From the NCBI GenBank assembly GCA_003167215.1, contig PMTV01000040.1:74410-126215 (forward strand): a stretch of 51,806 nucleotides of DNA. Reading direction: 5' to 3'. The notes under the pieces were generated by a model. The model was given only the letters and a program-made list of their open reading frames with translations, was not told where the DNA came from and did not search any database. Origin of the DNA: Acidobacteriota bacterium. Its GTDB lineage: Bacteria > Acidobacteriota > Terriglobia > Acidiferrales > UBA7541. Of the stretch, positions 40,082 through 51,806 are shown piece by piece. The position numbers and the translations under genes are program-made. Numbering within the stretch: position 1 is the stretch's first letter; the number at the start of each line of letters is the position of its first letter.

Positions 40082-42361
40082 TCAGCTGGGGGAGCTATGT
40101 GCAGCCACAAGCGCCTGGCCGAGGCTCAGACCCCCGTCGCCCGCGGAGACTTCGGAATGTGTGAAAACTTCAAATTCGTCGGATTCCAGTTTGCAAATCA
40201 ACTGTTCAAAAACAAGTGAGTTGTTGAATGTACCGCCGCTCAAGCAGATCTGATTGATCGAGGATTCTTCTCGCAGCAAGCGTGAGAGGCGCACGAGAGT
40301 ATCCACCAGTCCGTTGTGAAATCGTCGGCTGATTGTTTCCGTGCCCACCTTCTGGCGGAGATCTTCGACGATGGCGCCGAACAATGCCGAGGAGTCGATC
40401 AGCCAGCACCTGTTCTCGCGGCGAATGGCGAAGGGATAGCCAGCCGTCTCGCACGACGACCGTCCCGACATTTCCAGTTCCATCGCGGCCTGTGCTTCGT
40501 AACTCACTTCTTGCCGAATCCCGATCAACGCCGCGACGGCATCGAACAAACGTCCGCAACTCGACGTCAAGGGAGAATTCACTCGCTGGTCCATCATGCG
40601 CAGGATCAGTTCCGCCCTCCCGCGCTCAAGTCGCTGCACGAAAGGAATGTCCAGGCCGAGGAAATCCTCGCCAAAAGCCTGCGCCAAATAACTCACCGCC
40701 ATCCGCCACGGTTCATGGATCGCTGCGGCAGCCCCAGGCATCGGTACGTACGCGAAATGGGCGCCCCGTTCAAAGCCTCCGCCATCGGCATAAAGCGCTT
40801 CGCCACCCCAGATATTGCCGTCCTTTCCGTAGCCTGTGCCATCGAGCACGAGTCCGATGACCCGCCCCTCGACTCCATTTTCCGCCAGGCAGGATGCGAT
40901 GTGCGCATGGTGGTGCTGAACTCCCACGACTCGGACGCCCTTCTGTCCAAGCGCCCATTTCGTCGACAAATAATCGGGGTGAAGATCGTGCGCGATGATT
41001 TCCGGTTCGATTTCGAGGATCCTCGAAAGATGGGAGATGGCATCGTGGAAGAAGTCGAGACTCTCGACGTTTTCGAGATCGCCGATATGCTGGCTCAGGA
41101 ACGCGAGGTTGCCGCGCGTCAGGCAGATCGTATTTTTCATCTCCCCGCCGACCGCAAGAATTTGCGGGAGTTCTTTGTGCAGTCGAACCGGCGCCGGCAC
41201 GTAGCCTCGCGACCTCCGTATCTGTCGCAGCCTCCCGGCCGAATGACGAACCACAGAATCGTCGCAACGGAGGAGAATCTCGCGGTCGTGCACAAGAAAG
41301 CAATCGGCGATGCCCCCTAGTCGATCCACCGCCTCGCGGTTTCCGATCGCAATCGGTTCTTCACTCAGGTTTCCGCTGGTCATGACCAACGCCGCGAATT
41401 TGCCTGCCGCCATGAGCAGATGGTGAATCGGGGTATACGGCAGGAAAATCCCGAGGTCGCGTTGGTTTGGCGCCACGCTTTCAGCAATCGCGGCGCCTTC
41501 AATTTTGGGCAACAGCACGATGGGCCGCTGACGGCTGGTCAGAAGTCTTCGTGCTTCAGCATCGATATCGCAAAATCGCGCCGCAGCTTCCAGATTCCGC
41601 ACCATCACGGCAAACGGCTTCGCAACGCGCCGTTTGCGCTCGCGCAGCCGTTCCACGGCGGCCGCGTTTACGGCATCTGCCGCGAGGTGAAATCCCCCGA
41701 GTCCCTTGACGGCGAGTACCTCGCCCAATCGAAGGTGCTCCACCGCCGCTTCGACGGGATCGCTGGCCGCGAGCGCGTGCCCTTGAGGGTTCCAGAATTC
41801 GAGCTGCGGGCCGCATTTCCAGCAGGCATTCGGCTGCGCGTGGAAACGTCGGTCTTCCGGGTCCTCATATTCCGCGCGGCATTGCTCGCACATCGGGAAC
41901 CCCGACATCGAGGTGCGCGGCCGGTCGTAGGGTACATCCCGCAAGATTGTGAAGCGTGGTCCGCAATTTGTGCAGTTGATAAAAGGATAGTGATACCGGC
42001 GGTCCCGAAGGTCGAACAGCTCCCGAACACAGTCTTCGCACGTTGCCACGTCCGGAGCGATCAGCGCGCTCACGTGTTGGCCGGTATGGCTAGACCTTAT
42101 TTCAAAACCTCGATCCAGCCGGCACGCCGTCTCGCGGACGGATACCTGGGTAATCTGTGCTAGCGCCGGCGCATCCTTCGGGAGGCGCGAGACGAAATCC
42201 TCAACCAGCTCCTGCGGGCCCTGAATTTCGATCGAAACTCCTGCCGCCGTATTGCGGATGTTCCCGCCGAGTTTGCGATCGGTCGCAAGACGATAGACGT
42301 ACGGCCGGAACCCGACTCCTTGCACGATACCGGCGACCTGGATTTCCTTGCGGACTTGCAT
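40082..42361 (-). CDS. hypF: [NiFe]-hydrogenase maturation carbamoyltransferase HypF
   Basis: A 759-residue multidomain protein. N-terminal acylphosphatase domain (about 1-90, 'GIVQGVGFRPYVYRLA'); two zinc-finger pairs (about 105-180, 'CEDCVRELF...CTNCGPRFTI' and 'CEQCRAEY...CWKCGP'); a YrdC-like domain (about 200-380, 'LAVKGLGGFHLAADA', 'KPFAVMVRN'); and a Kae1-like carbamoyltransferase domain with 'HDLHPDYLSTKWA' and 'VQHHHAHIASCLAENG' supplying metal-binding histidines. It makes carbamoyl-adenylate and loads HypE for cyanide ligand synthesis. It is the last gene of the hydrogenase operon, 6 nt after hypB, with no strong Shine-Dalgarno, suggesting coupled translation. Confidence 0.96.
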   Translation of the reverse strand: MQVRKEIQVAGIVQGVGFRPYVYRLATDRKLGGNIRNTAAGVSIEIQGPQELVEDFVSRLPKDAPALAQITQVSVRETACRLDRGFEIRSSHTGQHVSALIAPDVATCEDCVRELFDLRDRRYHYPFINCTNCGPRFTILRDVPYDRPRTSMSGFPMCEQCRAEYEDPEDRRFHAQPNACWKCGPQLEFWNPQGHALAASDPVEAAVEHLRLGEVLAVKGLGGFHLAADAVNAAAVERLRERKRRVAKPFAVMVRNLEAAARFCDIDAEARRLLTSRQRPIVLLPKIEGAAIAESVAPNQRDLGIFLPYTPIHHLLMAAGKFAALVMTSGNLSEEPIAIGNREAVDRLGGIADCFLVHDREILLRCDDSVVRHSAGRLRQIRRSRGYVPAPVRLHKELPQILAVGGEMKNTICLTRGNLAFLSQHIGDLENVESLDFFHDAISHLSRILEIEPEIIAHDLHPDYLSTKWALGQKGVRVVGVQHHHAHIASCLAENGVEGRVIGLVLDGTGYGKDGNIWGGEALYADGGGFERGAHFAYVPMPGAAAAIHEPWRMAVSYLAQAFGEDFLGLDIPFVQRLERGRAELILRMMDQRVNSPLTSSCGRLFDAVAALIGIRQEVSYEAQAAMELEMSGRSSCETAGYPFAIRRENRCWLIDSSALFGAIVEDLRQKVGTETISRRFHNGLVDTLVRLSRLLREESSINQICLSGGTFNNSLVFEQLICKLESDEFEVFTHSEVSAGDGGLSLGQALVAAHSSPS

Positions 42362-42367
42362 GATGTT

Positions 42368-43042
42368 TCAACAGGCGGCGGCCGCAGCGCGCGAGACTTT
42401 CCGCTTGCGATCCAGCCAAGAGAGCCATTCCGCCATTCCCTCGCGGGTCTGGCAGGACACCCGAACGATGTCCATATCGCGGTGGATACTCCTCGCGTTC
42501 GCTTCGGCAGCAACGACATCGAATGGCACGTAGGGCAGAAGGTCGATCTTATTCAGGATCAGCAGTTCCGACTTATGAAAGATCGAGGGATATTTGAGCG
42601 GCTTGTCTTCTCCCTCCGTCACGCTGAGAACAACGATTTTCGCCGATTCGCCCAAATCGTAGCTTGAGGGGCATACGAGGTTTCCCACATTTTCGATCAT
42701 CAGCAGGTCGAGATCTTCCAAACGCCAATCGAGAAGCGCCCGTTCGATCATCCGGGCGTCCAGATGGCATGTCCCGCCGGTCGTAATTTGCCTTACGGGA
42801 AACCCAAAGCGGGCCAAGCGTCTCGCATCGTTTTCCGTCTGAATGTCTCCGGTAAGAACTGCCACTCGTTCGCGACGATCGAAGCTTTCCAGGGTTCGTT
42901 CGAGCAGGCTGGTCTTCCCGGATCCCGGTGAACTAATCAAGTTCAGGCACAGAATATTGGCTGCTGCAAAGCGCGCCCCCAAACTGGCGGCAATGCGGTC
43001 ATTCTCGCTCAAGACTTTACGCTCGAGTGGCACGCGTTCCAT
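42368..43042 (-). CDS. hypB: Hydrogenase nickel-insertion GTPase HypB
   Basis: A 224-residue SIMIBI-class GTPase. P-loop 'SSPGSGKTSL' (37-46), 'VAVLTGDIQTENDARRL' with the switch Asp, the metal site 'TTGGTCHLDARM' (Cys and His), 'IENVGNLVCPSSYDLG' (dimer/metal Cys) and 'LNKIDLLPYV' for guanine specificity. It lacks both the N-terminal CxxCGC high-affinity nickel motif and the His-rich nickel-storage stretch of some HypBs. The ATG at 43042 is preceded by GGAGGT and starts inside the hypA gene (26-nt overlap). It hands nickel to the large subunit together with HypA. Confidence 0.95.
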   Translation of the reverse strand: MERVPLERKVLSENDRIAASLGARFAAANILCLNLISSPGSGKTSLLERTLESFDRRERVAVLTGDIQTENDARRLARFGFPVRQITTGGTCHLDARMIERALLDWRLEDLDLLMIENVGNLVCPSSYDLGESAKIVVLSVTEGEDKPLKYPSIFHKSELLILNKIDLLPYVPFDVVAAEANARSIHRDMDIVRVSCQTREGMAEWLSWLDRKRKVSRAAAAAC

Positions 43043-43382
43043 CTTCGACCTCCAGATAGGCGAGCTCCAGTTCGTCGCCTCCCAAGAATTGAGAATCCCG
43101 CACGCCGCAGTCCGGACATGCCAAATCTTCCTTGGGTGCAGCATAGGAGCGCCCACAGGATCGACACTGATAACGACGCGCGCAGAATTCAATTTCGAGT
43201 GCCAGCGGCTCAAGTTCCGTCCCACGCACGAGAGCTTCAAAACAAAAGCTCATCGCGTCCGGGTCCACTCCCGCGAGTTCGCCGATCCGCACGCCCACCT
43301 TGTAGATGTGGCGGGCCGGGAAGCGCCGTCTTTCCGCGCGAACCGCATCCAGCACCGAATTGGCAATACCGATCTCGTGCAT
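43017..43382 (-). CDS. hypA: Hydrogenase nickel chaperone HypA
   Basis: A 121-residue protein. The N-terminal 'MHEIGIANSVLDAV' holds the nickel-binding Met-His-Glu, and the zinc site is made by two CxxC pairs (Cys73/76 in 'CRSC', Cys89/92 in 'CPDC'). It delivers Ni(II) with HypB. The ATG at 43382 gives the correct MHE start; a TTG one codon earlier is not needed. It begins 10 nt after hypE and overlaps hypB. Confidence 0.95.
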   Translation of the reverse strand: MHEIGIANSVLDAVRAERRRFPARHIYKVGVRIGELAGVDPDAMSFCFEALVRGTELEPLALEIEFCARRYQCRSCGRSYAAPKEDLACPDCGVRDSQFLGGDELELAYLEVEDGTRATRA

Positions 43383-43392
43383 CAACCGGCCC

Positions 43393-44454
43393 TCAACAGA
43401 TTCTTGGCAATTGATCGCCGGAGAGTAGATCGACGATCCGCGATGTACCCAGCCGCGTGCGTAGCGTAACCATCCCTCGATGGGAGTCCGTCACCGTTCC
43501 AATGATCCTGGCGTCGCGGCCCAACGGATGCTGGCGCATGGCTTCGAGAATGGATTCCTCAGCAGCGGGCTCGACGACCGCCACCAGCTTGCCTTCGTTG
43601 GCCACATACAGGGGATCAAGACCCAGCATCTCGCAGGCGCCTTGGACTTCATCGCGGATGGGAATCGCACTTTCCTGCAGCTCGATGCTCACGTTGGATC
43701 GCTCTGCAATTTCATTCAGCGAACTCGACAGTCCGCCCCGCGTCGGATCCCGTAGACAGCGGATAGCGCCGCTCGCCCGCAGCATATCTGCTACCAGACC
43801 GTGCAGCGCTGCCGTATCGCTGTGAACCGCGCTTTCAAATTCGAGGCCTTCCCGTTGGGACAGAATCGTAATTCCGTGATCTCCAATGGTCCCGCTCAAC
43901 AGCACGAGATCCCCGGGGCGCGCCCGATCAGCGGAAAGTCGCACGTCGGATGAGACCAGTCCGATTCCGGAGGTATTTACAAACAATCCGTCGCCGTTCC
44001 CTTTTTCGACTACCTTCGTGTCTCCCGTGACGACGACAACGCCCGCAAGAGCAGAGGCGACGCGAATGGATTCCATGACCCGCCGGAGAGTATCAAATGG
44101 AAGCCCTTCTTCGAGGATGAGTGCGAGACTCAGGAAAAGGGGTTTCGCGCCGCCCATCGCTAGATCATTTACGGTACCGTTCACCGCCAGCGTTCCGATA
44201 TCACCACCGGGGAAAAATAGCGGCTTCACGACAAAGGTGTCCGTGGTAAACGCAATTCGCGATCCGTCGACATCTACAATGGCTTGGTCATCCAGGCGAT
44301 CGAGGACGGGATTTTGCAGAGCTGGAAGAAGGATCTCGCGCAGGAGCTTCGCGCTCATTCGCCCCCCGCTTCCATGGCCCAACAGGATAGACTCCGTTGC
44401 CGCGATCGGAACCGGACAATTCAAAGCAATGTCGAGTTTCGTTTCTTGACGCAT
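43393..44454 (-). CDS. hypE: Hydrogenase cyanide-ligand maturation protein HypE
   Basis: A 353-residue PurM/AIR-synthase-like ATPase. N-terminal 'LLGHGSGGRMSAKLL', the ATP region 'TTDTFVVKPLFFPGGDIG', 'VNGTVNDLAMGGAKPLFL', 'GDTKVVEKGNGDGLFVNTSGIG', and the invariant C-terminus PRIC, whose last Cys is carbamoylated by HypF and dehydrated to the thiocyanate that donates CN. Its ATG shares one base with the hypD stop (TGATG), so it is tightly coupled. Confidence 0.96.
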   Translation of the reverse strand: MRQETKLDIALNCPVPIAATESILLGHGSGGRMSAKLLREILLPALQNPVLDRLDDQAIVDVDGSRIAFTTDTFVVKPLFFPGGDIGTLAVNGTVNDLAMGGAKPLFLSLALILEEGLPFDTLRRVMESIRVASALAGVVVVTGDTKVVEKGNGDGLFVNTSGIGLVSSDVRLSADRARPGDLVLLSGTIGDHGITILSQREGLEFESAVHSDTAALHGLVADMLRASGAIRCLRDPTRGGLSSSLNEIAERSNVSIELQESAIPIRDEVQGACEMLGLDPLYVANEGKLVAVVEPAAEESILEAMRQHPLGRDARIIGTVTDSHRGMVTLRTRLGTSRIVDLLSGDQLPRIC

Positions 44455-45563
44455 CAGCGATTCGCCTTCGCCGTTAGCGCGTGTCGCCGATATCGGTAAT
44501 AAGCCGCACAGGCACCTTCGGAGGACACCATCGGAGCGCCCAGAGGATTTTCCGGAGTACAACGCGTCCCGAACGCGGAACAATCCATCGGTTTCTTGAG
44601 TCCCTGAAGCACTTCTGCGCTAATGCACTCCGCGGGCTCGTCCGCGGCCACACCTTCTGTGCCAAAAATACGATCCGCATCGAATGCGGAATACTCTTCG
44701 CGGAGATTAAGACCACTCTCCCGAATTCCGCCGATTCCGCGCCATTTGCGATCGCAGACTTCGAACACTTCTCGCAGTACCTTCTGAGCGAGGAGATTCC
44801 CTTCGTAGGATGCGGCGCGCACGTACTGGTTTTCGACCTCCGCGCGCCCTTCTTCCAACTGTTTCACCAGCATCAGGATCGCTTCCAGAAGATCGAGCGG
44901 CTCGAATCCGCCCACAACAATCGGCACGCGGAACTCCCGGATGAGTTCTTCATATTCGCGATAGCCCATGACCGTGCACACGTGGCCCGGACCAATGAAG
45001 CCTTGCACGCGATTGCGCCGTGAACCTAACAGCGCTCGAATCGCGGGCGGCACCAGGACGTGGGAGGCCAGCATCGAAAAATTCCCAAGTCCTTCTCGCT
45101 TGGCTTGCCAGACAGCCATGGCGTTCGCGGGAGCGGTCGTCTCAAAGCCGATGGCAAAGAACACCACTTTTCGCGCGGGATGGGCGCGCGCGAACTTGAG
45201 AGCTTCGGTCGGAGAATAAACCACGCGCACGTCTCCGCCCTGAGCCTTCACATGAAACAGGTCAGTGCGTGAACCCGGTACGCGCAGCATGTCTCCATAA
45301 GAAATTAAAGTCACATCAGGACGCGAAGCGATCTCAATCGCCTTATCGATCGTTTCCAGAGAGGTCACGCACACCGGGCATCCGGGCCCATGAACGAGTT
45401 CAATTCCGGCGGGCAGCATCTCATCAATGCCATAACGCATCAGAGTGTGGGTTTGCCCGCCGCAAATCTCCATGAGTACCCAGGGCCGTGTAGCGCGACG
45501 GCCCAGCTCGGCCACAATTCCGCGCGCAATTTTCTCATCCCGGTATTCGTCCAAATACTTCAT
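44454..45563 (-). CDS. hypD: Hydrogenase Fe(CN)2CO assembly scaffold HypD
   Basis: A 369-residue iron-sulfur protein. Conserved motifs: '[10 protein letters not shown]' (Cys34), '[14 protein letters not shown]' (Cys62/65), '[14 protein letters not shown]', '[12 protein letters not shown]', '[14 protein letters not shown]', and a C-terminal cysteine set ('VCDRKW', '[26 protein letters not shown]') that binds the [4Fe-4S] cluster. It forms a complex with HypC where CN and CO are attached to iron. The ATG follows AAGGAG and is 30 nt after hypC. Confidence 0.97.
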
Positions 45564-45593
45564 ACACTCCTTCGGAACTCCGCCGGCGTTGCC

Positions 45594-45866
45594 TTACTGC
45601 TCTGCTTGCGACTCTTCGAGCTCCGACTCCAGTTCGCCGTTGAGTAGTCCCATGGCTTCGAGCGCCTCATAACTCCGCTCAGCCTCTTCCCGGTCCACAA
45701 GGCTGATGGCGAATCCTACATGCACAATCACGTAGTCTCCGATCGACGCCTCTGGTACGAAGTCCAGGCAAGTCTCCCGCGTGATTCCTCCAAACTGAAC
45801 GCGTCCCACGCGAATTCCGTTTTGCAGTTCGCTACTAACGATCTTTCCCGGGATGGCGAGGCACAC
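45594..45866 (-). CDS. hypC: Hydrogenase assembly chaperone HypC
   Basis: A 90-residue HypC/HupF-type chaperone. The N-terminal 'MCLAIPGKIV' has the essential Cys2, and the OB-fold core 'GRVQFGGITRETCLDFV' and 'GDYVIVHVGFAISLVDREEA' is complete. A short acidic tail follows. The start is GTG with AAGGAAG upstream, 1 nt after the hyaD stop. It carries the Fe(CN)2CO unit from HypD to the large subunit. Confidence 0.96.
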   Translation of the reverse strand: MCLAIPGKIVSSELQNGIRVGRVQFGGITRETCLDFVPEASIGDYVIVHVGFAISLVDREEAERSYEALEAMGLLNGELESELEESQAEQ

Positions 45867-45867
45867 G

Positions 45868-46440
45868 TTAAACGCTTCCTTTTTCGCAAGGCTCGGAAAC
45901 TATCCGGTCCGAGTGTTGGCCACGCGGCAAGGCTGATGGTTGGAACTTCAAACCACGATCCGGTGATTCCTTCCAGAGATTCAACTGCGCCACCGCTGCA
46001 TCCACCAAGAGCACAAGGGCAGCCTCGACCTCGGGAGACAGGGTTGTGCCCCAATCGGTATTGGCAGGCTGCACGCCCAAGACAACAATCTCCTGAGGAC
46101 CGCTCGACACCAGGAACAGGGCGGCAATCAGATCGGCAACACCCAGCTGATGAACGCTTCTTCCTGCTGTCGTACCCAGCAAATCTTTTCCGGTCATTCG
46201 GGCGAGGGTTCCGGGTGCTTTGCCCGAGTTCATGGCGTCTAGGATCAATATCCGGGGGGCATCCGAAGCATACGGAATCAGCTCAAGACCGAGAGTGCCG
46301 CCATCCAGAATCGTCACACCCGCCGGTACTCGCGGATCACTCTCGAGCAGCCTTGCAGCATGCACGCCAACGCCCTCGTCAGAGAGGATCGTATTGCCCA
46401 CCCCTATCACCACTGTGTCCGAAAACCGGAAGTCTTCCAT
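45868..46440 (-). CDS. hyaD: Hydrogenase large-subunit maturation endopeptidase
   Basis: A 190-residue HyaD/HupD-type protease. The nickel-sensing residues are visible: 'IGVGNTILSDEGVGVHAARLL' (Glu), 'ILILDAMNSGKAPGTL' (Asp) and 'SVHQLGVADLIAALF' (His). It cuts the C-terminal tail of HyaB after nickel insertion. The ATG is 1 nt after the hyaC stop. The C-terminus is about 25 residues longer than in E. coli HyaD. Confidence 0.93.
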   Translation of the reverse strand: MEDFRFSDTVVIGVGNTILSDEGVGVHAARLLESDPRVPAGVTILDGGTLGLELIPYASDAPRILILDAMNSGKAPGTLARMTGKDLLGTTAGRSVHQLGVADLIAALFLVSSGPQEIVVLGVQPANTDWGTTLSPEVEAALVLLVDAAVAQLNLWKESPDRGLKFQPSALPRGQHSDRIVSEPCEKGSV

Positions 46441-46441
46441 G

Positions 46442-47239
46442 TCACGCTCTGGATTGGGAACTTTGTTCAGCAGCCGGCCTTGCTTCCCGGAGAACCTCGG
46501 CGTCCTCGTCGTTCTCTTCGGCGAGGGCCTTCCGCAGTTCATGCTCGGGAACGAATTTGTAACCGCTGAAGATGCTTTCCATCACACCATTTTCCTCTTC
46601 GATCGAAACCAGGATGGCTGTGTAGAGATGGTGAATGAAGAACATCCAGAACACGAACATCACCAGGAAATGAATTTCGCGAAGCCACTGAATGTCAACC
46701 AAGTGCGGAAGCCATCCGAAGAAGAAGCTGACGACCCGATTGCCTAAAATCCGCGAATAGAGCGCGAGTCCGGTTAGTATCTCAACCAATGCCAATCCAT
46801 ACATAACGGCATAGGAAGCGCCGGCCAGTGCGTTGTGACCGATGTGGGGAGTTGGCGACCAGACCATAAAGCCGTAATACTTCCCGGTCTCAGCGATATC
46901 CTTCAGGCGTTTTCTGGTTACCGGGATGAACTGATCCCAATGTGACCAGCGGTTTCCGATAAACATCCAAACGATCCGTATCAGAACCGCGCCAAGAAAC
47001 GCGAAACCGGAGAGCAGATGGACGAACCGCATCGTTCCCATCACGTAGGCGGTTCTTCCATGCGGAACGACAAACGGGGAATGCATGTAATAGCCGGTGA
47101 TCGAGAGCGAGACGATCGTGGCGAAAATGATCCAGTGCGCAAATCGCACCGGCCATTCCCAGACGTACACCCTCACTTGCCCGTGCGCCGGCCTCTTCCA
47201 TTCCGTCTCTTGGCCATGTCGCCTTTGTGTCTTTTTCAT
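46442..47239 (-). CDS. hyaC: Ni/Fe-hydrogenase b-type cytochrome subunit
   Basis: A 265-residue membrane cytochrome b with four helices. Haem-ligand type histidines sit in 'WEWPVRFAHWIIFATIVSL' (helix 1), 'MRFVHLLSGFAFLGAVLIR' (helix 2) and 'LREIHFLVMFVFWMFFIHHLY' (helix 4), and 'GYYMHSPF' follows helix 1. It anchors the small subunit and passes electrons from H2 to the quinone pool. The ATG at 47239 is preceded by AGAGGG; a TTG two codons earlier is in frame. It lies 18 nt after hyaB. Confidence 0.94.
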   Translation of the reverse strand: MKKTQRRHGQETEWKRPAHGQVRVYVWEWPVRFAHWIIFATIVSLSITGYYMHSPFVVPHGRTAYVMGTMRFVHLLSGFAFLGAVLIRIVWMFIGNRWSHWDQFIPVTRKRLKDIAETGKYYGFMVWSPTPHIGHNALAGASYAVMYGLALVEILTGLALYSRILGNRVVSFFFGWLPHLVDIQWLREIHFLVMFVFWMFFIHHLYTAILVSIEEENGVMESIFSGYKFVPEHELRKALAEENDEDAEVLREARPAAEQSSQSRA

Positions 47240-47257
47240 ACGCAACCCTCTGCCCGA

Positions 47258-48967
47258 TCAGGCTTCTGCGCGTGCGAGCACATGCCCTCGAGCGTCAACT
47301 ACGTGAACGGCGCAAGCGAGGCAAGGATCGAAGGAGTGAACCGTGCGCAGAATTTCGAGCGGACGTTCCGGATCCGCGACCGGTGTCTTGAGGAGTGCCG
47401 ATTCATACGGTCCCCGCTGTCCTCGTGCATCTCGCGGCCCGGCATTCCAGGTAGACGGAACGACGGCCTGGTAATTCTTGATAGCCTGGTCTTCGATCTC
47501 CACCCAGTGCCCGAGCGATCCGCGCGGCGCCTCAAAGAAGCCGAAACCCTGCGCGGTCTTGGGCCACGAGTTCGGGTTCCACTTTTCCCCGTTGTGAATG
47601 CGCACATTCCCACTCGCCAAATTATCTCCAAGTTGTTCGATCCAGCCCACCAGACGGCTCGCGAGCAGTTGCGTTTCAAGAGCGCGCGCCGCCACGCGCC
47701 CCAGCGTCGAAAATAATGCGGCGGGCGGAGCCTTGAGTTTTCCGAGCGTCGCATCGACCAGAGCTTTGACCTCCGGCTGACCCGAAGCGTACGCAACGAG
47801 GAGCCGTGCGAGCGGGCCGACCTCCATCACTTGGTCTTGATACCGCGGAGCCTTCAACCAGGAATATTTTTCATTCACCTCGAGGAATTCATAAGGGGGT
47901 TTCGGTCCCGAGTATTTCGGATTGGTTTCTCCGTTATATGGGTGCCTGGCGGCTTGGTCACCGCCCGAATATTCGTACCAAGAATGGGTCACATATTCCG
48001 TGACATTTGCGGGATCGACTGGGTGAACCTTGGAGAGATCACGGTCCAGGACGATCCCTCGCGGAAGAAAAAAGTCCGCAGGATCTTTGATGGAACCTTG
48101 GGGATAACCGCCATAGCACATGTAATTCCCAACTCCCGTGCCCAGCTTGAACCACTCGGGATAAAAACTCGCCACGGCAAGAACGTCGGGAACGTACACC
48201 TGATTCACAAACCCGATCGCCGACTTGGCCACCTGCACCAGAAAATCCATTCGTTCGGGGTTGATTGTCGCGCCCGGCTCGTTCGGATCCATGGCCGTGG
48301 CCATGCCGCCAACCAGGAAAGTCTGCAAGTGAGGATTCTTGCCGCCAAGAACTGCGTGAATCCGGATGAATTCCTTCTGGAACTGCAGCGCTTCCAGGTA
48401 ATGCGCGACGGCCATGAGGTTCGCTTCGGGCGGAAGACGGTAGGCCGGATGTCCCCAATATCCGGCGCCGAACAAGCTCAGTTGTTTGCTCGCAACCAAG
48501 GCGCTGACGCGGTCTTGTACACCCTTGAAATATTTCTCACTCGACACCGGCCAATCGGAGATCGATTGCGCAAGCTGCGCTGTCTTTGCCGGGTCCGCCT
48601 TGAGAGCGGAGAGGATGTCCACCCAGTCCAGGGCGTGCAAATGGTAGAAATGGATTACGTGGTCCTGGATCGTTTGCGTCGCGGCGATGATGTTGCGCAC
48701 CAAGCGCGCGTTGTCGGGAATTTCGATGCCCAGCGCATCCTCGACCGCGTTGACCGAAGCGAGCGCGTGGACCATCGTGCAGACGCCACAGATGCGTTGC
48801 GCCCAGATCCAGGCTTCGCGCGGGTCGCGGCCGCGCAAGATGAGCTCGATGCCACGGAACATCGTGCCGGAACTCCATGCGTCCGAGATCGTTCCGCCTT
48901 CGACTTGCGCTTCGATGCGGAGATGTCCCTCTATTCGCGTGACCGGATCCACCACAATCCGCGCCAT
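47258..48967 (-). CDS. hyaB: [NiFe]-hydrogenase large subunit (group 1 type)
   Basis: A 569-residue catalytic subunit. The N-terminal L1 motif is 'RICGVCTMVHA' (Cys60/63) and the C-terminal L2 motif 'DPCLACAVH' (Cys549/552), giving all four cysteine ligands to the NiFe centre. The 14 residues after His555 are the tail removed by HyaD. Other family stretches are 'EGHLRIEAQVEGG' and 'SLGHWVEIEDQAIKNYQAVV'. It catalyses H2 oxidation/evolution in the periplasm. The ATG has GGAGGA upstream and is 9 nt after hyaA. It travels through the Tat system with HyaA. Confidence 0.97.
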   Translation of the reverse strand: MARIVVDPVTRIEGHLRIEAQVEGGTISDAWSSGTMFRGIELILRGRDPREAWIWAQRICGVCTMVHALASVNAVEDALGIEIPDNARLVRNIIAATQTIQDHVIHFYHLHALDWVDILSALKADPAKTAQLAQSISDWPVSSEKYFKGVQDRVSALVASKQLSLFGAGYWGHPAYRLPPEANLMAVAHYLEALQFQKEFIRIHAVLGGKNPHLQTFLVGGMATAMDPNEPGATINPERMDFLVQVAKSAIGFVNQVYVPDVLAVASFYPEWFKLGTGVGNYMCYGGYPQGSIKDPADFFLPRGIVLDRDLSKVHPVDPANVTEYVTHSWYEYSGGDQAARHPYNGETNPKYSGPKPPYEFLEVNEKYSWLKAPRYQDQVMEVGPLARLLVAYASGQPEVKALVDATLGKLKAPPAALFSTLGRVAARALETQLLASRLVGWIEQLGDNLASGNVRIHNGEKWNPNSWPKTAQGFGFFEAPRGSLGHWVEIEDQAIKNYQAVVPSTWNAGPRDARGQRGPYESALLKTPVADPERPLEILRTVHSFDPCLACAVHVVDARGHVLARAEA

Positions 48968-48976
48968 GGATTCCTC

Positions 48977-50098
48977 CTACGCGCCGCGAGACTCCGGCGG
49001 TTCTTTTGTTTCTTCTGCGGTCTTCTTCGGCCGAAGTTTGTCGCGCACCATATTGCCGGCGACCTGCGCGACCATTGCCGCGCCCACTGCCGCTGTGGCG
49101 ACCCATCCGATCTCGTCGGCGGTCACGTCCACTCCGAACCCGGGCACCGACGGCAAGCGCTTATAGAACGGTGATTTCGTATCCCAAAAACGGTGCGAAG
49201 CACAGGCGATGCAGCCGTGGCCGGACTTCACCGGCCAACTCGTGCCGTCATTCCAGCGGACCGTGGGACAGTTGTAAGTCGCTTCCGGGCCTTTGCAGCC
49301 CATCTTGTAAAGGCAATAGCCCTTGCGATGGCCTTCGTCGCCCCACTCCTCCACGAAACGTCCCGCATCGTAGTGCGCGCGGCGCTCGCATTGATCGTGA
49401 ATGATGTCACCGTAAGCGAATAGCGGCCGGTTGTATTCATCGAGCGCAGGCAGATCATGGAACGTCAGATAATGGACCAGGACCGCTGCGGTGTTCGCGG
49501 GGTTATGTGGGCATCCTCCCAGATTGATGAGGTTCTTCAATCCCGGAACTGCTTCATGCAAGCCCAGGGCCCCGGTAGGGTTCGGGTTCGACCGTACCAA
49601 TCCGCCGTCCCAGGCGCACGCACCTACCGCGATATTGGCGGCGGCTTTGCTGCAAACGTGTTTGGCGATGTCCAGCGCGGCCTTGCCTCCGATCGTGCAG
49701 TAGACGCCGCCGTCGGCAGTTGGAATTGCGCCCTCCACCACGGCGATGTACTCGCCGGCGTGTTCGCGAACAACACGTTCGAGTGCGTCTTCCGCCTGCT
49801 TCCCAGCACCGGCCATCAACGTTTCGTGATACTCCCAAGACAGCAGATCGAGAACAAATTCTGCAACCGGGGGGTTGCTGCTGCGCAGCATGGATTCCGT
49901 ATTGCCTGCACAATCTTGAAACTCAAGCCACACCAGAACCGGACGGCTTGCCTGAGTGAGCGCCTTCACAACCGCGCCGAGATATCGCGGAGGCAGCGCC
50001 AGAGTAGCGACCATCGAGCTACAAAACTGCACGAATTCACGGCGCGAAACCCCGCGCGATTTCAGCGCAGCCGTTAAACGTGTTCTCGGTGAATGCAT
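48977..50098 (-). CDS. hyaA: [NiFe]-hydrogenase small subunit with Tat signal (variant proximal cluster motif)
   Basis: A 373-residue FeS subunit. Tat twin-arginine motif 'SRREF' (18-22) and a hydrophobic stretch to about 50. The proximal cluster motif is CAGN (Cys63-Asn66) where most group 1 enzymes have CxxC; the other proximal ligands are Cys161 and Cys196. The distal cluster ligands His234, Cys237, Cys262, Cys268 and medial Cys277, Cys296, Cys299 are all present. A C-terminal membrane helix (about 331-350) would anchor it to HyaC. The extra cysteine of O2-tolerant CTCC-type enzymes is absent. The ATG follows GGGGGGATACTA. First gene of the operon. Confidence 0.95.
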   Translation of the reverse strand: MHSPRTRLTAALKSRGVSRREFVQFCSSMVATLALPPRYLGAVVKALTQASRPVLVWLEFQDCAGNTESMLRSSNPPVAEFVLDLLSWEYHETLMAGAGKQAEDALERVVREHAGEYIAVVEGAIPTADGGVYCTIGGKAALDIAKHVCSKAAANIAVGACAWDGGLVRSNPNPTGALGLHEAVPGLKNLINLGGCPHNPANTAAVLVHYLTFHDLPALDEYNRPLFAYGDIIHDQCERRAHYDAGRFVEEWGDEGHRKGYCLYKMGCKGPEATYNCPTVRWNDGTSWPVKSGHGCIACASHRFWDTKSPFYKRLPSVPGFGVDVTADEIGWVATAAVGAAMVAQVAGNMVRDKLRPKKTAEETKEPPESRGA

Positions 50099-50233: not shown

Positions 50234-50249
50234 TGTGACTGCCGTCACA
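50234..50249. promoter_or_regulatory. CRP-type operator in the hyaA/crp divergent region
   Basis: A perfect 16-bp palindrome TGTGAC-TGCC-GTCACA, matching the CRP consensus TGTGA-N6-TCACA. It lies 136 nt before the hyaA start and 70 nt before the regulator start. A TGTAGT -10-like hexamer at 50271-50276 would place the regulator's start point at about 50283, so the site centre is at -41.5, the class II activator position. Its rightward reading also makes autoregulation likely. Confidence 0.8.
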
Positions 50250-50318
50250 CACAGCTGTGGTGGAGAGCACTGTAGTTCATGGGTCGAGATGACAGCTTAG
50301 GTACAAGAGGTGCGTGCC

Positions 50319-51161
50319 ATGCAGAGACGTTCTAAGAAGCGGCACTTTAACGGTAGAGAGGCAAGGACCCTATTCGGGCACCCGGTTAACGAGCCGCTCG
50401 GACATCTGAGCGCCCGCTACCCGTTTCCCGCTCGTTTGAACGAGCGGTACGTGGAAAGACTGAAGGCATCGAATGTCGGGAAATTGTATCCGAAGGGGGC
50501 AATTCTTTACGACGAGGGAGACAAGCCCACCGGTGTCTATGTCGTCTTGGACGGGCGCGCCAAGCTTTCCGTGAATTCCTTAAGCGGCAAGACGCTGCTG
50601 CTCGGTTTCTTTGGCCCGGGCACGATCTTGGGATTGGCTTCTGCCATCTTGGGACGCACCCATGCGGCCACTGCGGAAGTCATGATTCCGACCAAGGTCG
50701 TGTTTGTGTCTCGCAAGGAACTGGTGAGAGAAATGCAGGGCGATGCGATGGCAGCTCGGCAAGCGGCGGAACTCGTGAGCGAGGCCTGCTATTTCATTTT
50801 GGCGAAGATGAGGGCCGTCGAGCTTTCCGAATCCACTGGGCAAAAGCTTGCACGTTGCTTGCTGGGATTGCTCGCTCACAATATAGGTTCCAGCGGTGAA
50901 GCAGCTCTGCAACTGGATCTGAGCCAGGAAACCATCGCGCAGATGGTCGGACTTTCCCGAGAAACCGTGACTCGGCTGATGTCCCGATTCCGCAGGGAAC
51001 ACATTGTGGACTGGAAACGTTCCGGGCTCATCATTCAAAACCGAAAGGCGCTCGAAAGACTCGCCGATTTTTCGGAGACAGACACGAGTTTCGCGGGAAA
51101 CGTTGCTGCGCAGAGAGTCGCCTCGACCAGTGGTGAGTTGCGTCCGCGTTCAACAAACTGA
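50319..51161 (+). CDS. Crp/Fnr-family transcriptional regulator
   Basis: A 280-residue regulator. A cyclic-nucleotide-binding-like domain (about 55-165) has 'LYPKGAILYDEGDKPTGVYVVLDGRAKL' and 'ILGLASAILGRTHAATAEV'. The phosphate-binding-cassette Arg is kept but the Glu that contacts cAMP ribose in E. coli CRP aligns with Ile. A long dimer helix and a winged HTH follow. The HTH contains 'SQETIAQMVGLSRETVTRLMSRF', in which the CRP DNA-contacting Arg, Glu and Arg of the recognition helix are all kept. There is no Fnr-type cysteine cluster near the N-terminus. The ATG at 50319 has AAGAGG upstream. It is divergent from the hydrogenase operon and very probably controls it. Confidence 0.93.
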   Translation: MQRRSKKRHFNGREARTLFGHPVNEPLGHLSARYPFPARLNERYVERLKASNVGKLYPKGAILYDEGDKPTGVYVVLDGRAKLSVNSLSGKTLLLGFFGPGTILGLASAILGRTHAATAEVMIPTKVVFVSRKELVREMQGDAMAARQAAELVSEACYFILAKMRAVELSESTGQKLARCLLGLLAHNIGSSGEAALQLDLSQETIAQMVGLSRETVTRLMSRFRREHIVDWKRSGLIIQNRKALERLADFSETDTSFAGNVAAQRVASTSGELRPRSTN

Positions 51162-51651
51162 CGGATTCGGGTTGTTCAAAACCGTGCTCCGAATCACGGC
51201 CAAGTCTTGAACAGCACCGGAAGAAAGGCTTGTCGGATTGAAAGGCCCGGTAATCCAACTCATGCTTGACTGCATCCGAATTCGGCGCTCGATTATGAAA
51301 ACCCGCGGACCTCGAAGAGGTGTGCGCGTTTGCGGCAGATGCAAGCATGAAAGCAAGGACTGAACCGCATCGGCTCGCGGCGGCCGGCAAGACTGTGAGC
51401 AAACTGAAGAAAACGGCCGCATCCTTACTACAACTTGCCAAAAGCCAGGAACCCAACAACTTCCGAACAGGTGGCGCCCTCATTCAATCTCATCCAGATG
51501 CGCCTCGTTAATGGCCTGATAATCGAGCATAAAAGAATAATTGCGAATTGTGACTCCAGTCACAGTCAAGGGCCTCATCAATATAGTAAGAACCGAACGA
51601 TTTAACGGACAACGTTGATCCGGGTCTCTGAAGATTACCTGAGGCAGAACA
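51162..51651. other. Intergenic region, no firm gene
   Basis: About 490 bp. Very short plus-strand frames near 51294 (22 residues) and 51347-51511 (54 residues, Lys/Ala rich) lack good Shine-Dalgarno sequences or known domains and are not called. The second CRP-type operator lies near the right end. Confidence 0.35.
51549..51564. promoter_or_regulatory. Second CRP-type operator
   Basis: A perfect palindrome TGTGAC-TCCA-GTCACA with the same half-sites and spacer length as 50234-50249. It lies 88 nt before the last gene. A TATAGT -10-like hexamer (51582-51587) puts the site centre near -38 to -40, close to a class II activator site. Confidence 0.8.
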
Positions 51652-51806
51652 ATGGCGCGCTTTAGAGTCTTCCGCTTGGCGGCGATTGCAACTCTTACCC
51701 TTCTTGGCGTTCCGCAGCCTCTTGTCCGCGCTCAAGAGAAACAAGCCGCAAAAAACACCTCAGCTGCGGCACCAGCCGCGGCTGAGGCGAAGCCTTCCGA
51801 ATACGC
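51652..51806 (+). CDS. Secreted protein, N-terminal part (3' end outside window)
   Basis: 51 codons are visible before the window ends. A clear Sec signal peptide ('FRLAAIATLTLLGVPQPLVRA' region, probable cleavage before QEKQ) is followed by an Ala/Lys-rich linker. The ATG has GAGG about 8 nt upstream, and a CRP-type operator and -10 box precede it. Function cannot be told. Its place in the Crp/hydrogenase neighbourhood hints at a role in hydrogen metabolism or envelope electron transfer, which is inference. Confidence 0.7.
   Translation, partial: MARFRVFRLAAIATLTLLGVPQPLVRAQEKQAAKNTSAAAPAAAEAKPSEY

Follow-up and report, generated by a model that had tools for sequence, protein, structure and literature searches.

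Transcription factors of the Crp/Fnr superfamily combine a domain resembling the cNMP-binding domain with a C-terminal Crp helix-turn-helix. E. coli CRP reads the half-site TGTGA through Arg180, Glu181 and Arg185 of its recognition helix and has a cAMP phosphate cassette that includes Glu72, Arg82 and Ser83. FNR is characterized by an N-terminal cysteine cluster ([4Fe-4S]) and the half-site TTGAT. HcpR of Desulfovibrio is a Crp/Fnr regulator with a CRP-like site, which also occurs upstream of the cooM operon hydrogenase (PMC545781). In Acidobacteria, a group 1f [NiFe] hydrogenase has been reported for Silvibacterium bohemicum and A. capsulatum (PMC5900883). The papers found contain no description of the regulation of the acidobacterial group 1f hydrogenase and no transcription factor for acidobacterial hydrogenases, and the main text of PMC8407424, consulted for acidobacterial hydrogenase expression at low oxygen, does not mention hydrogenase. 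Searches of the open-access literature returned no account of 22-bp tandem Crp/Fnr operators in Acidobacteriota or of the regulon considered here.

The window analysed here, a stretch of 51,806 nucleotides, forms the end of a 126-kb contig in a 3.78-Mb draft genome of an Acidobacteriota bacterium. It contains the following features:

40082..46542, minus strand: maturation genes (protease, hypC, hypD, hypE, hypA, hypB, hypF), assigned tentatively by sequence reading
46442..47245, minus strand: putative hydrogenase cytochrome b subunit (HyaC-like), assigned in the same way
47258..48967, minus strand: hyaB, [NiFe] hydrogenase large subunit
48977..50098, minus strand: hyaA, [NiFe] hydrogenase small subunit, with a Tat-type N-terminus
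50234..50249, no strand: primary candidate Crp/Fnr-type operator, exact palindrome TGTGACTGCCGTCACA, between hyaA and the regulator
50256..50271, no strand: weaker tandem partner palindrome TGTGGTGGAGAGCACT, centred exactly 22 bp from the primary site
50319..51161, plus strand: Crp/Fnr-family regulator with cNMP-binding domain, Crp helix-turn-helix and recognition helix SRETVTRL
51549..51564, no strand: candidate single operator, exact palindrome TGTGACTCCAGTCACA, upstream of the secreted protein gene
51652..51806, plus strand: N-terminus of a putative secreted protein, cut by the contig end

Judged from the sequence, site and recognition helix are CRP-like and the gene set is FNR-like. The half-site TGTGA, the 6 bp between half-sites, the SRETVxR helix and the domain order are shared with E. 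coli CRP, whereas the window regulator lacks the cAMP-binding residues, the targets have redox and stress functions and the operators are arranged in tandem at 22 bp. FNR/ANR-type regulators belong to the same family and have similar kinds of targets (universal stress proteins, hydrogenase, cytochromes, fermentative enzymes), and an N-terminal cysteine cluster is also present in a paralog encoded on contig C59 of the same genome. The window regulator has no such cluster, however, and the sites read TGTGA rather than TTGAT, with G instead of the T of FNR at the third half-site position. The Cx2C-x7-8C spacing of the cysteine-bearing paralogs also differs from that of E. coli FNR. HcpR resembles the present system in its Crp/Fnr type, CRP-like site, Arg at position 180 and redox and hydrogenase targets, but its core target hcp is not among the target families found here, and tandem 22-bp pairs are not mentioned for it in the available part of PMC545781. 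HyaA of the window is 80% identical to the small subunit of S. bohemicum S15, a comparison confined to the small subunit, whereas the 1f subgroup is defined by large-subunit phylogeny.

Palindromes, their rarity and the 22-bp spacing

The first-pass annotation had reported TGTGAC-N4-GTCACA on either side of the regulator gene, and both copies are indeed exact and correctly located at 50234-50249 and 51549-51564. Pattern searches of the whole genome yielded three exact copies (reversed control: 0), compared with about 0.2 per genome and 0.003 per window expected from base composition. The third copy follows the gene of the closest Crp/Fnr paralog on contig C59, 35 bp after its stop codon; genome-wide, all three adjoin the two regulators with an SRETVTRL helix. 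When two mismatches are allowed within the window, 1.27 sites are expected and 38% of shuffles reach two. This window count is unremarkable, so the weight is carried by the exactness of the match, by how rare the motif is in the genome and by the comparison with other genomes.

A genome-wide search had been suggested earlier as a check, and it found the sites to be rare and mostly intergenic: TGTGA-N6-TCACA occurs in nine copies, of which eight lie in intergenic DNA or at the ends of genes. Across 61 related genomes, TGTGAY-N4-RTCACA was detected 198 times versus 5 times in the reversed control. Genomes with a regulator homolog contain on average 4.8 sites and those without 0.5; at least two sites are present in 30/39 and 2/22 genomes, respectively (Fisher p 4e-7), with regulator presence scored from one query and one genome (G053) having nine sites yet no regulator match. 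On this evidence, TGTGAC-N4-GTCACA is very probably the operator motif of the Crp/Fnr family to which the window regulator belongs.

In 38 of 78 distinct sites, collected from six genomes and a few further loci, a second palindrome (at least 7 of 10 core bases) is centred exactly 22 bp away; other distances occur 0-3 times each. A direct search for such pairs returned 10 tandem matches in this genome (≤ 3 mismatches) and about 250 in the 61 genomes (≤ 2 mismatches), with a reversed control of 0 in both cases. The tandem 22-bp geometry, which is new here, is frequent in the operators of this family. Spacers and central bases (the N4 cores) differ among copies, and the tandem sites are therefore not a copied repeat; the reading as a dispersed repeat was dropped on this ground. 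Thirteen of the 78 sites are located inside called reading frames, some of which are doubtful, and some sites have no clear target. Three sites in a conserved layout precede hyaA in Acidobacterium-type MAGs (L225, L226, L228-L232), namely a 22-bp tandem pair near -180/-158 and a third site near -77.

The 50234/50256 pair is one of the 10 tandem matches in the genome, and the palindrome at 51549-51564 has no tandem partner. Seen from hyaA, which is read the opposite way, the stronger palindrome of the pair is the nearer one. It had further been claimed that the first palindrome is positioned at -41.5 relative to a -10-like hexamer of the regulator. The arithmetic is right, as TGTAGT (50271-50276) lies 32 bp from the palindrome's centre, but the hexamer is a weak match to TATAAT (4/6) and is touched by the partner palindrome at 50256-50271, which makes the proposed promoter doubtful.

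The window regulator and its cysteine-bearing paralog

The regulator gene starts at ATG 50319 or GTG 50310. Its product scores above the cut-offs for PF00027, PF13545 and PF00325, has Crp-family relatives in the PDB and contains both defining parts of the superfamily. Compared with SRETVGRI of E. coli CRP, its helix SRETVTRL keeps Arg-Glu-x-x-x-Arg, and hence the residues equivalent to Arg180, Glu181 and Arg185; the CRP-type Arg-Glu-Arg contacts noted in the first-pass annotation are present. The equivalents of Glu72, Arg82 and Ser83 are absent: in an alignment against E. coli CRP, LG-LASAILGRTHAATA replaces IGELGLFEEGQERSAWV, and the Gly-Glu and Arg-Ser of the cassette are missing.

The C59 paralog carries an N-terminal Cx2C-x8-C, and similar clusters are present in most homologs. 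Thirteen HTH_Crp_2 matches were found in the genome; among those compared at the level of single residues, which include some but not all of the weak ones, the RETVTR helix is seen in the window protein and the C59 paralog only. A Crp-type protein on contig C11 has VRELVSR in its place. The TGTGA motif is common to at least one paralogous regulator with the same recognition helix as the window protein. Only one other genome of the genus yielded close orthologs of the window regulator, so the comparative support comes mostly from cysteine-bearing relatives. The predicted control of the regulator over its own gene gains support from genome G013, in which the starts of both window-like regulators are closely preceded by a site, and many regulator homologs have the motif upstream of their gene.

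In four genomes, a small cysteine-containing protein of unknown family (MxKDxRDxLxVLxFELxFLxxGGYGR) is encoded divergently to a cysteine-type regulator (L023:9742-10464, L155:7938-8363, L281:8008-8511, L277:217-933); an NCBIfam scan of two of these proteins gave no match.

Candidate targets: hydrogenase, cytochrome and stress genes

In the 300 bp upstream of hyaA homologs of the class, the exact site is present in 7/30 cases and a site with at most one mismatch in 11/30, compared with 0 and 0.1%, respectively, in mononucleotide shuffles. Among named genomes, a site with 0-1 mismatch precedes hyaA in 17/33 Acidobacteriota (with the Acidiferrales genome L213 counted among them) versus 0/38 relatives from other phyla (Chloroflexota, Nitrospirota, others), which supports the predicted control of the hydrogenase. 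The hya promoters of Silvibacterium bohemicum and Bryocella elongata have such a site. Allowing up to two mismatches, the hya site is present in 15/20 motif-using genomes and 0/10 non-users (p 2e-4), a slightly circular comparison because an exact hya site adds to the motif total of its genome.

In almost all relatives, the regulator is not adjacent to hya. An independent case is G023, in which a cysteine-type regulator is divergent to hyaA with a one-mismatch site in between. Among the named genomes, the closest relative of HyaA (L202, 85%) lacks both a site and a regulator within reach, and a search of the 20 genomes available for the genus did not recover the block of hya, regulator and cytochrome. 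Conservation thus extends to the association of hydrogenase and motif but not to the local arrangement with the regulator. The local regulon proposed earlier, consisting of hydrogenase, regulator and secreted protein, is not supported, as the same motif occurs at several other promoters of the genome and hya operons elsewhere keep the site without a neighbouring regulator. Both observations point to regulation mainly in trans.

Sites matching the relaxed motif are located between divergent universal stress protein genes, between genes for a universal stress protein and an ADP-forming acyl-CoA synthetase, and upstream of genes for a zinc alcohol dehydrogenase, a BON-domain protein and a histidine kinase. 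Others are found between hya and the regulator, before the cut-off secreted protein gene and behind the C59 regulator. In total, about eight candidate operator regions are present in the genome, with a second regulator among the predicted targets. Universal stress proteins, Crp regulators and c-type cytochromes lead among 71 candidate target proteins, which also include hydrogenase and Rrf2; this tally covers the candidate targets only and is a description, not an enrichment test against non-target genes. Two loci of family f3 genomes (L165:7771-9158, L168:2223-3561) show a regulator followed by a site, an Rrf2-family gene and cytochrome genes. At L282:2038-5767, phosphoketolase and acetate kinase genes adjoin a cysteine-type regulator and an ADP-forming acyl-CoA synthetase-like gene, which suggests a fermentation island.

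The gene at 51652 ends before a first CXXCH, DmsE being recognized by CXXCH motifs and a match to TIGR03508. Its product is probably a multiheme c cytochrome of the DmsE type, as suggested by synteny and N-terminal resemblance. In genome G033 (L277), a regulator gene is followed in turn by a one-mismatch site and the genes for a DmsE-family decaheme cytochrome (TIGR03508), a large outer-membrane-like protein and a cytochrome c, and DmsE-type cytochromes are also found behind sites in G013, G001 and G036; this gene order and these cytochromes make a multiheme cytochrome the likely product of 51652. The outer-membrane-like protein next to the DmsE cytochrome (L277:3062-5650, 862 aa) gave no Pfam match and only a weak one to GSU2204 (E 7e-5). 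The rest of the cytochrome gene, or a full copy, was not found in this assembly. The window and the C59 contig share 23 bases at their ends (51784-51806 and L023:12080-12102), and the C59 contig encodes a similar secreted N-terminus before its end. This suggests two near-identical gene bodies left unplaced by the assembly, and the 51652 gene body is probably a collapsed repeat.

A candidate regulon and its alternatives

We consider it likely, from the sites, their rarity, conservation and tandem spacing, their co-occurrence with the regulator family and the identities of the targets, that both palindromes serve as operators in a redox- or oxygen-linked Crp/Fnr regulon that extends across the lineage Terriglobia (Acidobacteriota). 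Crp/Fnr-type dimers with an SRETVTRL helix would bind TGTGAY-N4-RTCACA and, at many promoters including 50234-50271, two dimers would sit side by side on one face of the DNA with their centres 22 bp apart, possibly in a cooperative manner. The cysteine-less window protein and the C59 paralog with its Cx2C-x8-C probably share operators, between them dividing the labour in some way, and probably control their own genes. Under a shortage of oxygen or of another electron acceptor, both would probably act as activators rather than repressors and induce the uptake hydrogenase, the universal stress proteins, the fermentative enzymes and the proteins that are probably multiheme cytochromes; such a signal is suggested by the target identities and the cysteines of the paralogs.

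An unlikely alternative is that the operators serve the cysteine-bearing C59 paralog only, the window regulator being a relative with its own or a lost function that is present by chance. The paralog type is far more widespread, with the motif both upstream and downstream of its homologs, and the window type occurs in few genomes. The window helix, however, is identical in its contact residues, and in G013 a site immediately precedes the start of each of the two window-type relatives. Two of the three exact genomic copies flank the window regulator, as would fit a regulator whose control is limited to hya, its own gene and the secreted protein gene, but we regard this as very improbable given the relaxed and tandem forms at several other promoters with a coherent gene set and the hya sites kept elsewhere without a regulator nearby.

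An E. coli-type global carbon regulon under cAMP-CRP would account for the half-site, the spacing and the Arg-Glu-Arg contacts, all of which are the same; it is just as improbable, since the Gly-Glu and Arg-Ser of the phosphate cassette are missing and the targets are redox and stress genes instead of sugar genes. The probability that the palindromes arose by chance or form a dispersed repeat element is close to negligible. Although the window count is ordinary when two mismatches are allowed, the exact count is far above expectation with reversed controls near zero, the mostly intergenic copies vary in spacers and N4 cores, and the tandem-pair searches in this genome and the 61 genomes already contradict it.

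We tentatively propose a previously undescribed Terriglobia-wide regulon in which two dimers adjoin on 22-bp palindromes, and in which cysteine-bearing (probably Fe-S) and cysteine-less paralogs may use common operators to adjust hydrogen oxidation, electron transfer through multiheme cytochromes and survival under stress. Members of the Acidobacteriota rank among the most common bacteria in soil and are involved in hydrogen uptake. The 22-bp pairing offers a natural case for the cooperative binding that adjacent Crp/Fnr dimers may display. With a defined operator of fixed tandem geometry, co-regulated genes can be listed at once, and the way in which Acidobacteriota control H2 oxidation can be tested directly in cultures of strains such as Silvibacterium bohemicum or Bryocella elongata.
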